From assembly GCF_001592185.1 (NCBI RefSeq), contig NZ_BCWL01000004.1:1-39292 (forward strand): 39,292 nucleotides of DNA, written 5' to 3'. Made by a program: the position numbers and the translations under genes. The stretch comes from Bergeriella denitrificans NBRC 102155 (GTDB taxonomy: Bacteria; Pseudomonadota; Gammaproteobacteria; Burkholderiales; Neisseriaceae). Shown here piece by piece: positions 24,226-39,154 of this stretch (the first letter of the stretch is position 1; every line of letters starts with the position of its first letter). The notes below the pieces were generated by a model. It was not told the origin of the DNA, ran no database searches, and saw only the letters and a list, made by a program, of their open reading frames with translations.

Positions 24226-24402
24226 TTACTGTTTTTCCAGCTCTTCGCGGATTTTCGCTTTGACCCATTGGGAGAAATTCACTTTATCGACAAATGCCAG
24301 CAAATCCTGCTCGGTGGTACGGTTAAAAGAAACACTACGCATGGCGCGTTTTTCTTTTTCGTATTTTTTTTGCCATTCAATCTGCTTTTCTTTATCAGCC
24401 AT
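24226..24402 (-). CDS. Ribbon-helix-helix-like small protein, copy 1
   Basis: This 58-residue protein begins MADKEKQIEWQKKYEKEKRA, then has a short strand (MRSVSFN) and two helices (EQDLLAFVDKV and NFSQWVKAKIREEL). Strand-helix-helix with this spacing is the ribbon-helix-helix pattern of small DNA-binding repressors and antitoxins. It is clearly homologous to the protein at 37299-37472 (shared KKYE, VSF, DLL, FSQW, RE). Start is fixed by AAGGAG. It lies downstream of a hydrophobic peptide gene and is probably co-transcribed. DNA binding is inferred from pattern only. Confidence 0.7.
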   Translation of the reverse strand: MADKEKQIEWQKKYEKEKRAMRSVSFNRTTEQDLLAFVDKVNFSQWVKAKIREELEKQ

Positions 24403-24411
24403 GGAAACTCC

Positions 24412-24440
24412 TTGATTTTTCAGACGGCTTTTTGTAAGAT
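24412..24440 (+). promoter_or_regulatory. Antisense RNA promoter, copy 1
   Basis: TTGATT (24412-24417), 17 bp, TAAGAT (24435-24440), on the strand opposite the peptide gene. A DUS core occupies the spacer, and the -35 box is next to the Shine-Dalgarno of the RHH gene on the other strand. Confidence 0.55.
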
Positions 24441-24445
24441 TAGGA

Positions 24446-24469
24446 CTAGGCGGCGTGCTGGCCGCCTAG
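24446..24469. repeat. Perfect hairpin in the module, copy 1
   Basis: CTAGGCGGC (24446-24454), six-base loop and GCCGCCTAG (24461-24469). It would be the first structure of the antisense RNA and lies in the peptide-to-RHH leader of the sense RNA. Confidence 0.75.
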
Positions 24470-24480
24470 CTGGTTAGTCC

Positions 24481-24546
24481 TTAGTAAGCGTTAGCGCTTA
24501 CCAACAGCAGGACAACCAAGATAAGAATTTGAAGGTGAGGCTTCAT
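24481..24546 (-). CDS. Ibs-like hydrophobic peptide, copy 1
   Basis: This 21-residue frame begins MKPHLQ, continues with the hydrophobic run ILILVVLLLV and ends SANAY. AGGAG stands seven bases before the ATG. The shape, a short basic start, Leu/Ile/Val core and a final aromatic, is that of Ibs-family type I toxins, as is the antisense RNA arrangement. Toxicity by membrane insertion is inferred. Confidence 0.6.
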   Translation of the reverse strand: MKPHLQILILVVLLLVSANAY

Positions 24547-24564
24547 TTTCTTTCTCCTAAGTTG

Positions 24565-24588
24565 AGCCCCGCTTCGGTGGGGCTTTTC
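24565..24588 (+). terminator. Terminator of antisense RNA, copy 1
   Basis: AGCCCCGC (24565-24572), a TTCG loop and GGTGGGGCT region (24577-24584), then four Ts, on the plus strand. The minus-strand transcript carries the same stem in its 5' leader. Confidence 0.75.
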
Positions 24589-24619
24589 CCGTATCGGCCT
24601 TGCTGCACCGACAAGATGA

Positions 24620-24648
24620 ATTATACTTGTAATTACGATTTTTGGCAA
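24620..24648 (-). promoter_or_regulatory. Promoter of the peptide-RHH operon, copy 1
   Basis: On the minus strand TTGCCA (24643-24648), exactly 17 bp, then TATAAT (24620-24625). The palindrome GTAATTAC (24628-24635) sits in the spacer and is a candidate operator for the RHH protein. Confidence 0.7.
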
Positions 24649-37037: not shown

Positions 37038-37066
37038 TTGTTAAAAATCTCGTTTAGCGATATAAT
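37038..37066 (+). promoter_or_regulatory. Promoter of the peptide-RHH operon, copy 2, with operator
   Basis: TTGTTA (37038-37043), exactly 17 bp, TATAAT (37061-37066). The spacer holds ATCTCGTTTAGCGATA (37047-37062), a CTCG-N5-CGA palindrome that recurs inverted at 37481-37496. Confidence 0.75.
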
Positions 37067-37093
37067 TCATTTCATGGATTAGGAAATAAGAAA

Positions 37094-37114
37094 CCCGCCG
37101 TTGGAGGCGGCGGG
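37094..37114 (-). terminator. Antisense RNA terminator and sense leader hairpin
   Basis: CCCGCCG (37094-37100) and CGGCGGG (37108-37114), seven-base loop. T-rich on the minus strand side only. Confidence 0.7.
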
Positions 37115-37142
37115 AATCCCAAAAAGAAAGGAGGTGATGAAA

Positions 37143-37199
37143 ATGATTAAGTTCTTAATCCTGTTGGGTTTATTACTTATCAGCTTCCCGGCTTGGTAA
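37143..37199 (+). CDS. Ibs-like hydrophobic peptide, copy 2
   Basis: The 18-residue frame encodes MIKFLILLGLLLISFPAW. The ending LLLISFPAW is close to the LLLISFSAY ending I recall for E. coli IbsC. A near-perfect Shine-Dalgarno AGGAGG (37129-37134) lies eight bases upstream; an ATG at 37137 is too close to it. Membrane toxicity is inferred from similarity. Confidence 0.65.
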   Translation: MIKFLILLGLLLISFPAW

Positions 37200-37260
37200 T
37201 AAAACCTAACTAGCAGTAAGGGCGGCAGAACACCGCTGCCCTTCCTCCAAACTTTCTTAA

Positions 37261-37289
37261 ACTATACCGCCAACGGTTTTAAAAATCAA
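37261..37289 (-). promoter_or_regulatory. Antisense RNA promoter, copy 2
   Basis: TTGATT, 17-bp spacer, TATAGT on the minus strand. The -35 box overlaps AAAAATCAAGGA, a 12-mer also present at the same place in copy 1. Confidence 0.65.
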
Positions 37290-37298
37290 GGATTGCCT

Positions 37299-37472
37299 AT
37301 GGATGAAAAAGCAAAAAAGGCAGCCGAGTATCGAAAAAAATATGAGCAAAACCGAGTAATGAAAGCGGTTTCTTTTCACAAGGAAAAAGATGCTGACTTG
37401 CTTGAGCTTATAGAAAATGTTGATTTTTCTCAATGGATTAAAAACATTTTACGAGAAAGGTTCAAAAAATAG
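37299..37472 (+). CDS. Ribbon-helix-helix-like small protein, copy 2
   Basis: This 57-residue protein (MDEKAKKAAEYRKKYEQNRV, then MKAVSFHKEKDADLLELIEN and VDFSQWIKNILRERFKK) has the strand-helix-helix form of RHH repressors. It is homologous to copy 1. It lies downstream of the peptide gene and is flanked on both sides by promoters with the same palindrome, so it may repress both its own operon and the antirepressor. Binding is inferred. Confidence 0.72.
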   Translation: MDEKAKKAAEYRKKYEQNRVMKAVSFHKEKDADLLELIENVDFSQWIKNILRERFKK

Positions 37473-37501
37473 TTGTAATTTCTCGCTAAACGAGATAGTA
37501 T
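37473..37501 (+). promoter_or_regulatory. Antirepressor promoter with the shared operator
   Basis: TTGTAA (37473-37478), 17 bp, TAGTAT (37496-37501). The palindrome CTCGCTAAACGAG (37482-37494) lies in the spacer; its reverse complement matches 15 of 16 bases of the site at 37047-37062. Confidence 0.65.
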
Positions 37502-37628: not shown

Positions 37629-38282
37629 ATGAATGCACCTGTACAACAATTCAACCCGTCCCAAATCTCCATTATCGACCACAACGGTGGCAAATGGCTG
37701 ACTGCTGAACAACTCGGTTTGGCTTTGGGCTTCTCCGACAAACGCGCCCGCGACGGCGTGAACAACCTCTACAACCGCCATCTTGACGAGTTTTCAGACG
37801 GCGATTCAACCACCATCAAATTGATGGCGGTTGACGGAAAGCAAAGAGAAACAAGGATTTTCAGCCACTCCGGCTGCAACCTGCTGAGTTTCTTCGCCAA
37901 CACCCCGAACGCCAAAGCCTTCCGCGCGTGGGCGAAAACCAAACTGGCCGAGCCGGACGGTTTTGTCGCCGTCGACCGCGAAACGTTGCGCTTCAACATG
38001 GAACGCGTCGGCCTTTTGGAAGAAGCCTATCTGAAAGCCAATCCCGAAGCGGCCAAGCTCGTCCGCTACCACAATATGGGTTTGGACTGGGACGAAAAAG
38101 CCCGTCTGATGGGCGTGAGCAAAGACGCGCTGCGCCACCGCCTGAAAGAGCTCGACCGCCTGGGCATCGTGGCCTACGCGCCCGATCCGAAATTCGCCCG
38201 CGCGGGCAGATTGGGCTGCGCGGCGCGGCAGCAGAAACGCGCCATGCTCGAAGCGCAACAGTCTCTGGGTTTGGAGGGTTAA
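37629..38282 (+). CDS. Bro-N-type phage antirepressor
   Basis: This 217-residue protein has an N-terminal Bro-N domain (about 10-105; KWLTAEQLGLALGFSDKRAR, TRIFSHSGCNLLSFFANT) and a C-terminal helix-turn-helix-like region (about 150-190; DEKARLMGVSKDALRHRLKE). Antirepressors bind and disable repressors. ATG 37629 is used with AAAGGA upstream; an in-frame ATG at 37611 is a weaker alternative. Its leader has two hairpins. Confidence 0.85.
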   Translation: MNAPVQQFNPSQISIIDHNGGKWLTAEQLGLALGFSDKRARDGVNNLYNRHLDEFSDGDSTTIKLMAVDGKQRETRIFSHSGCNLLSFFANTPNAKAFRAWAKTKLAEPDGFVAVDRETLRFNMERVGLLEEAYLKANPEAAKLVRYHNMGLDWDEKARLMGVSKDALRHRLKELDRLGIVAYAPDPKFARAGRLGCAARQQKRAMLEAQQSLGLEG

Positions 38283-38489: not shown

Positions 38490-38520
38490 AACCCGCAAGC
38501 AAAATGCCTGCGGGTTTTCT
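38490..38520 (+). terminator. Terminator after the antirepressor operon
   Basis: AACCCGCA (38490-38497) pairs with TGCGGGTT (38509-38516), followed by Ts. Confidence 0.8.
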
Positions 38521-39154
38521 TACAACGCTTACTTGTACGGCTACGAGCATCGACACCAACCGCCTGCGGCGCATCTTGTACGACCAGCTCAAAGACCACA
38601 CGCGCAACAAACATTTGGACAAAGCGACCAAAGCCAAGGTGGTACAAGCCATTCAGTCGTTCAACGGCTACAAAGACCTAAACTGCCTGCGCTCATGGCT
38701 ATTATTCAGCGGCAACCAAGCCGCCACGCTTGCCGAGTTCTACACCAAACACATGTACAACAGCATCCGCAGAAGCGACTACCCAACTGCGGACGACTAC
38801 TTAAAAGGCCTAGAAATTGAATCCCAACCCTTCCAAACCCTGCTGCCGCCGCACCTCGGCAACCCTAAAACCCTGCTTATCCTCGACCCGCCCTACGTCT
38901 CAACCCTACAAGGCATGTACGCCAACAACCGCTACTTCGGCATGGTGCAATTTTTGCAGCTTATGGATATGGTGCGCCCGCCATTTATCCTGTTCGGTAG
39001 CACCCGTAGCGAGCTTCTTAGTTATTTGTCTTATGTAAGGGATTTCAGACCGGATGAATGGCCGCGGTTTAACGGCTTCAAAACAGAGAGCTTAACCGTC
39101 AACATCGGACGGGGTGTCGCGGAGTATGAGGATAATATGGTCTGGAAGTTTTAG
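38504..39154 (+). pseudogene. Truncated D12-class adenine methyltransferase
   Basis: The open frame includes FNGYKDLNCLRSWLLFSG and the catalytic DPPY motif (residues 128-131 of the frame). It ends AEYEDNMVWKF, as in complete D12-type DNA adenine methylases of phages. The first half of the domain, with the S-adenosylmethionine-binding motif, is missing; recognisable sequence begins near 38550, just after the terminator. The only ATG lies inside that terminator. In Mu the modification gene mom has this end position. Probably inactive. Confidence 0.75.

Follow-up and report, generated by a model that had tools for sequence, protein, structure and literature searches.

Judged from sequence, the Ibs/Sib family has a real and recurring extension, in which the cassette is accompanied by a dedicated, exchangeable regulator gene that in some prophages is linked to an antirepressor; the mechanism is inferred. 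On this evidence, which is computational throughout, the reading that we consider likely is that of an Ibs/Sib type I module to which a putative RHH autorepressor has been added, one that may also govern the antirepressor in some prophages. What computation provides is homology to ibs/sib, an arrangement of parts that recurs, evidence that the peptide is under coding constraint, operators whose sequence goes with the RHH protein, and twin operators ahead of antirepressor genes. To our knowledge, Ibs/Sib has so far been treated as a chromosomal family of narrow, enterobacterial range and of unknown purpose. We find the cassette in about one third of the Neisseria genomes searched (13/40) and in 43/140 genomes of another family, partly inside prophages and phages, and with its own exchangeable repressor (repression being inferred).

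The DNA analyzed, hereafter the window, is a 39,292-nucleotide stretch from Bergeriella denitrificans. Its gene content, with PHROGs matches to a transposase, a DNA transposition protein, a terminase, a portal, a tail sheath and a tape-measure protein, suggests a Mu-like prophage. The locus of interest comprises the following features:

37038-37066, plus strand: P1, the putative operon promoter TTGTTA-17-TATAAT, called from sequence; P1 scores at least 9/12 in 32/37 related loci
37047-37060, plus strand: operator-like ATCTCGTTTAGCGA in the P1 spacer; its 13-mer recurs inverted 3' of the RHH gene, and the spacer tracks RHH type
37094-37114, minus strand: hairpin, predicted terminator of the antisense RNA; the sense mRNA also has a hairpin here, in its 5' leader
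37127-37138, plus strand: Shine-Dalgarno AAAGGAGGTGAT, with AGAAAGGAGG invariant in the 12-sequence alignment A1
37143-37199, plus strand: Ibs-like 18-residue peptide MIKFLILLGLLLISFPAW, supported by coding constraint and comparison with IbsA-E
37220-37241, plus strand: second hairpin GGGCGGCAG...CCGCTGCCC, forming the initial stem of the predicted antisense RNA
37088-37254, minus strand: predicted Sib-like antisense RNA of ~165 nt, its ends inferred from promoter and terminator
37289-37261, minus strand: putative antisense promoter TTGATT-17-TATAGT; the best such site at the RHH gene start exceeds its own shuffle mean in 37/37 loci
37299-37472, plus strand: 57-aa RHH-type protein (phrog_8400), the proposed autorepressor
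37473-37501, plus strand: P2, a second putative promoter, TTGTAA-17-TAGTAT, directly 3' of the RHH stop codon
37482-37496, plus strand: second operator CTCGCTAAACGAGAT, inverted relative to the first, with a 13/13 match to the P1 spacer
37629-38282, plus strand: Bro-N/anti-repressor gene (MNAPVQQFN...), matching PF02498 (E 2.9e-8) and phrog_5060, anti-repressor Ant (E 4.6e-21)

A preliminary description had proposed the promoter, peptide, Shine-Dalgarno, antisense promoter, terminator and 57-residue protein, and each was recovered at the same position; its antisense RNA of about 165 nt likewise agrees with ours (~37254 to ~37088, ends inferred). Missing from that description were the P1-spacer operator, P2, the antirepressor gene and a second copy of the module in the window. 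On the minus strand the terminator-like hairpin (37114-37094) is followed by TTTCTTATTT, and both sides are altered in 2/7 of its pairs in the alignment. Two further elements lie nearby: an inverted GCCGTCTGAA (uptake-sequence) terminator 5' of P1 (36968-37013), similar ones being seen by eye near several related modules, and an ORF at 38504-39154 matching phrog_28718 and, in part, phage DNA methyltransferases. Since neither promoter-like sites (3, versus 1.6 in shuffles, sd 1.2) nor terminator-like sites (2 versus 1.7, sd 1.3) exceeded chance in the 1.2-kb region, evidence for the locus was drawn from its relatives. A chance origin was ruled out by the recurrence of the cassette, the order of its parts and both promoters across many loci.

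We compared these loci with E. coli ibs/sib by means of covariance models. Positions 1-147 of the Rfam SIB_RNA model (RF00113) aligned to the window's minus strand at 37289-37121, scoring 33.8 bits (E 1.6e-4 when 1.2 kb was searched, 3.6e-5 for 271 bases). The gathering score of 56 was reached at no locus: none of 20 sources attained it, and the best match, at a locus from outside the family, had 55.6. The Neisseria loci score under this cut-off. A DNA search of 46 genomes of the genus located 13 places in 8 genomes, and model R1 was built from 11 of these 13 Neisseria loci, leaving out a frame-damaged copy and a copy without the hairpin. Despite containing no E. coli sequence, R1 ranked sibA-sibE in the first five places when run on six stretches of E. 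coli K-12 (28-45 bits, E 1.4e-9 to 7.4e-6), the sixth reaching only 11 bits. This test covered 11,706 E. coli bases, with three of the six stretches lying around sib loci, and no whole genome. R1 also matches the predicted antisense RNA of the window (37088-37254), a sequence with which it was built. In the other direction, when SIB_RNA was run on 20 other Neisseriaceae loci, 8 were matched at their own cassette with E<=1, two neighboring cassettes were matched as well, and the remaining 12 gave no match at their own cassette; outside the family it matched all 10 loci tested (of 14), with 31-55.6 bits. Matches between E. coli sib and the Neisseria loci run both ways. Rfam DicF (20.8 bits) and other weak Rfam matches fell below cut-off and were set aside.

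A further model, R2, was built from 18 sequences, E. coli included. The family search also turned up a second peptide subfamily of 21-23 residues resembling MKPHLQILILVVLLLVSANAY, whose 5' hairpin ACGGGAAAAGCCCCACCGAAGCGGGGC is close to the E. coli ibs hairpin. One R1 locus, L029 in genome G014, looked empty in the first stretch because a contig end cuts it; R2 finds a peptide and a type-b gene there (L111). Shared with E. coli ibs/sib are a hydrophobic peptide (18-19 residues in E. coli, 18-23 in Neisseria) mostly ending ..S..AY/W, a Shine-Dalgarno, a 5' hairpin able to end the antisense RNA, an antisense promoter 3' of the peptide gene and a similar antisense RNA size (136-145 nt for sib as annotated, ~165 nt in the window). 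In contrast, no regulator gene is annotated alongside E. coli ibs (operators were outside the comparison), whereas the window peptide appears to share an operon with an RHH-type gene, in a prophage. The proposal that the locus is an Ibs/Sib-like type I module is thus borne out as homology, by the full-length, though sub-threshold, SIB_RNA match and the retrieval of sibA-E by R1; for the cassette itself, toxicity and an antisense transcript remain inferences from that homology.

The resemblance extends to the peptide. That of the window is identical to the best of IbsA-E at 11/18 positions, a value equalled by 1 in 20,000 shuffles, which upholds the earlier impression of closeness to IbsC; other Neisseria peptides reach up to 14/18 identity to Ibs. 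Across 30 distinct sequences, entropy at codon positions 1, 2 and 3 was 1.31, 0.48 and 1.45 bits, respectively, such that position 2, mostly T (64%), is the most conserved. The final two residues are A-Y or A-W in 28/29 Neisseria peptides listed, and A/T-Y in 14/14 peptides of a second family and its phages and in 5/5 from E. coli. These counts exclude the MNWKLF.. (MNWKLF..QECN) type and damaged peptides.

The antisense unit was likewise assessed across loci. With V058 excluded, the best antisense promoter at the RHH gene start scored on average 8.6 of 12, compared to 6.7 for shuffled sequence, with single-locus p values often 0.05-0.3. Its -35 element is TTGATT, TTGCCA, TTGACA or, once, TCGCCA, with a spacer of 16-18. 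By sequence, the window locus carries antisense promoter and terminator. Folding is more favorable than in shuffled sequence for the sense as well as the antisense strand of the RNA (z -3.1 and -3.6). The Shine-Dalgarno is predicted to be more paired than the shuffle mean in 29/36 loci (Wilcoxon p 2.3e-5; V079 and V058 excluded).

To ask how regularly the cassette is accompanied by a regulator gene, we searched with R2, without use of the protein, and judged the next gene to be RHH-type by eye from sequence. R2 returned 32 cassettes from the 13/40 genomes of the genus. An RHH-type gene begins 20-43 nt 3' of the cassette match in 25/32, and a remnant is present in one more; 6/32 lack one, 4 of these being in genome G017, where an RHH-type gene stands next to none of the four cassettes (L100, L108, L114 and L117). 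Tandem or clustered modules with differing RHH-type proteins and operators were seen in G033 (contig C46, four cassettes), G020, G005 and G019. Searches that started from the protein gave a similar picture. The window's protein type (type a) was found at 35 loci (29 viral, 6 genomic; 27 distinct around the gene; the window is L074), and named Neisseriaceae carrying it are N. polysaccharea, N. bergeri, N. gonorrhoeae, N. viridiae and Alysiella crassa. A cassette lies directly 5' of the type-a gene with E below 1e-9 at 25/35 loci, and at 4/35 the peptide has diverged (MNWKLF.., altered at its end in one case; R2 E 0.13-0.28), for a total of 29/35 loci, or 22/27 distinct ones. Homologues consistently without the peptide would have refuted the preliminary description; such a lack is confined to 6/35 type-a loci, two from Alysiella and four others. 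For type b, a cassette was present at 12/12 loci, 8 of which are near-copies with one score.

The identity of the regulator is less secure. Type a belongs to phrog_8400 (E 1.8e-21 for the window protein), which is listed as of unknown function, type b to phrog_27481, and types c/d to phrog_3887, "transcriptional regulator"; neither the phrog_8400 nor the phrog_3887 entry names a peptide or antisense RNA. The RHH assignment has fair support from sequence for types c/d, which match CopG in the PDB (1b01, E 0.0022) and Arc weakly (E 0.11). Against the window protein, Pfam yielded no RHH match, NCBIfam nothing of RHH kind, and its profile no RHH structure among PDB sequences. An AlphaFold monomer model contains helices at residues 3-18, 32-40 and 43-55, an irregular stretch at 19-31 and no strand (pTM 0.31), and matched no structure by Foldseek and VIA-align; two predicted structures leave the RHH fold unproven. 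These models do not decide on the strand-helix-helix architecture previously proposed for the 57-residue protein. Of the suggestion that it is an RHH-like regulator, the strong association with the cassette stands, while neither Pfam nor predicted structure offers an RHH match. We nonetheless call it RHH-type because of its profile-profile similarity to types c/d (87% and 55% for type a; 80% for type b) and because of operator covariation (see below); its fold and DNA binding are inferred and not proven.

A second complete module, with a peptide of the other subfamily and an RHH-type protein of its own, occupies window positions 24226-24648 on the minus strand:

24620-24648, minus strand: putative promoter TTGCCA-17-TATAAT, with GTAATTAC in the spacer
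24430-24587, minus strand: cassette matched by R1 and R2
24481-24546, minus strand: 21-residue peptide MKPHLQILILVVLLLVSANAY
24412-24440, plus strand: putative antisense promoter TTGATT-17-TAAGAT (p 0.14 alone)
24226-24402, minus strand: 58-aa RHH-type protein (phrog_8400)

This cassette scores 32.6 bits with R1, of which it is not a member, and 116 bits with R2, of which it is; its predicted antisense RNA has a folding z of -4.6.

We next considered the operator-like sequence in the P1 spacer, which is 16-18 nt long across loci. Taken alone, the window palindrome is not significant (p 0.55). The single-locus version of the test having little power, a pooled test with a control was used: 28 distinct P1 spacers had a palindrome score of 132, compared to 94.9 when shuffled (sd 5.3), whereas 18 antisense-promoter spacers, the control, gave no signal (37 versus 35.9). 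Similar spacers were merged to reach 28, and V079, V058, G033c, G001b, G014b and other Neisseria loci with P1 below 9 were excluded, one of which, G000_C1b, has a strong palindrome; in the second family, certain P1 calls may be mistaken (L121 and L132). Among the 23 type-a loci whose P1 scored 9/12 or better, spacer similarity was correlated with RHH similarity (Mantel r 0.33, p 0.0002), and remained so with cassette similarity partialled out (r 0.32, p 0.0002); the correlation of spacer with cassette, given RHH, was weaker (r 0.16, p 0.024). Relatives in these statistical tests are not independent. Natural swaps point the same way. An identical peptide occurs with another RHH protein and another operator in the pairs V054/V071, G005a/G019a and V062/G020c, and one RHH type keeps the operator TATGTCTATACA(T/C)A with several kinds of peptide; AACGTGTCCACGTT is an example of a natural operator at other loci. 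Our new observation that the palindrome tends to follow the RHH protein more than the cassette is drawn from sequence comparison of putative operators.

The P1 operator is repeated (12-13/13) within 90 nt 3' of the RHH gene at 10/38 loci, among them the window. For 9/10, no locus with a clearly different spacer scored above 11 in the control, Alysiella V058 (12) being the exception; among the loci lacking a twin, some reach 12-13/13 against the region downstream in another locus, mostly where an operator type is shared or modules are in tandem. At each of the 10 twin-operator loci the next gene encodes a Bro-N, AntA, Rha or KilA-N protein (Pfam), that of G022 having been assigned by 73% identity to a Pfam-confirmed gene. 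An antirepressor-type gene within 700 nt (BLAST) was thus found at 10/10 twin loci and 6/28 others (Fisher p 1.7e-5). In some prophages, then, a twin of the operator lies before an antirepressor-type gene, a link newly observed here and inferred from sequence alone.

The arrangement calls to mind the immI region of phage P22 (Arc, Mnt, Ant), which likewise has a small RHH self-repressor by an antirepressor gene and an antisense RNA in the region. Unlike in P22, the antisense RNA predicted in the window lies over a toxin-like peptide and not over ant; the antirepressors here are of the Bro-N, AntA, Rha or KilA-N kind, and two separate promoters carry the same operator.

Under the reading that we favor, one mRNA from P1 would encode the hydrophobic peptide followed by the RHH protein. 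An antisense RNA whose promoter lies at the RHH gene start would cover the peptide gene and its Shine-Dalgarno and block or destroy the peptide part of the mRNA, which would itself tend to keep the Shine-Dalgarno sequestered by pairing. By binding the P1-spacer palindrome, the RHH protein would turn P1 off and, in the window prophage, would also shut P2, which is predicted to drive the Bro-N antirepressor gene. A fall in RHH protein may consequently raise peptide and antirepressor transcripts together, and the peptide may depolarize the inner membrane, as IbsC does according to a review (PMC8309996). In this scheme, that the protein binds DNA and represses, that the antisense RNA is expressed, that the peptide is toxic and that the unit has any biological role are all inferences. 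A more far-reaching version is possible but doubtful: the modules may form a new three-part toxin-antitoxin class in temperate phages of Neisseriaceae and Pasteurellaceae, in which a single RHH repressor would place a type I toxin and the prophage antirepressor under joint control, such that damage or a repressor-titrating incoming phage would at once release the membrane toxin and induce the prophage, at a threshold determined by the Sib-type RNA.

Alternatively, the RHH protein and twin operators may represent an old phage switch of the Arc/Mnt/Ant kind, between whose P1 and RHH gene the cassette was inserted as an addiction element, sharing only P1. Such a history would account for the Alysiella loci L058 and L080, where an RHH gene flanked on both sides by a similar operator is accompanied by a KilA-N gene but by no cassette, for the RHH genes without a cassette at L072, L073 and L077/L078, and for solo cassettes in E. 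coli, G017, G250 and the G719 family. We consider it unlikely, since the RHH-type genes that follow the cassette, at much the same distance, come from no fewer than three PHROG families, in the second bacterial family and Mannheimia phages as well, and since the pairing is kept while peptide and RHH types exchange. Another possibility is that the short ORF is not a toxin and instead serves as a translated leader that couples or attenuates the RHH gene, with the antisense RNA tuning RHH. In its favor, the peptide comes ahead of the regulator in RHH-bearing cassettes, and the -35 element of the antisense promoter shares sequence with the start, or the ribosome-binding site, of the RHH gene. Solo cassettes exist without an RHH gene, however, and constraint falls on the hydrophobic C-terminal half of the peptide; residues 6-19 of IbsC, C-terminal ones included, are required for toxicity, and Ibs, to which the peptide is homologous, is reported to be toxic (PMC8309996). 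A leader function is accordingly improbable. RHH proteins are common among type II antitoxins, as is generally known, and types c/d weakly match RelB-like and EndoAI antitoxins (E 0.0089 and 0.24), which would fit an RHH antitoxin that binds the peptide. We give this last idea hardly any credence, given that interchangeable peptides are found together with RHH-type proteins from three PHROG families, that a complete antisense unit is present by sequence and that E. coli ibs/sib is reported to act with RNA alone (PMC8309996).

If an added RHH autorepressor is indeed the correct reading, the pairing of cassette and RHH gene offers a testable hint at transcriptional control of Ibs-type toxins, and the RHH/operator arrangement would connect the lysogeny switch with a type I toxin. 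A protein-operator code is open to direct testing because nature has already exchanged peptides, RHH proteins and operators between loci.

Full-text literature, among the matches listed, contained no report of Ibs/Sib in Neisseria or of an RHH gene in a type I module. The preliminary suggestion of an undescribed three-part prophage system is supported to the extent that no description appeared among those matches; absence from print is not established, as Fozo 2010, Coray 2017 and T1TAdb 2021 were outside the scope. The literature considered includes gonococcal RNA studies (PMC4176332 and PMC4148029) and further papers (PMC5086665, PMC3874152, PMC7232551 and PMC10767807).

We finally gauged how widely the module has spread. 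In a search of the order, 5/399 genomes were positive, including G250, which lies outside the genus and carries a solo cassette (1/6 in its family); a search of the class found 2/369, the window's own genome and G719, whose family supplied the 43/140 genomes given above. These large searches, with 7-33 candidates scored per genome, are lower bounds. At 13 loci inspected in the G719 family, 5 had an RHH-type gene behind the cassette and 8 had none. By sequence, this second family is probably Pasteurellaceae because of an Aggregatibacter sRNA match at one locus and the presence of the module in Mannheimia phages. The latter (PHL101, vB_MhS_1152AP2 and vB_MhS_587AP2; 3/3 examined of 15 records) were found solely through the type d protein, as phage-record searches with the window DNA, the window protein and the type-b protein matched none. 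Their "transcriptional regulator" genes have the same order of parts, with the peptides MFKYIILVVFLLVLSSPAY, MYLKLLILVILILISTPAY and MLYRIILVIILLVISLPAY just 5'; in all three stretches the regulator is annotated, and the peptide and antisense RNA are not.

Two other kinds of RNA were observed near modules. One module-bearing viral contig (L057) carries a 71-bit match to Rfam sRNA-Xcc1 at 1185-1269. C4-type antisense RNAs, a class that controls antirepressors, lie within 0.3-1.5 kb of modules at L121 (3051-3136) and L124 (1131-1223), both above gathering for RF01695, and at L032 (1168-1234), where c4-2 scores below gathering.
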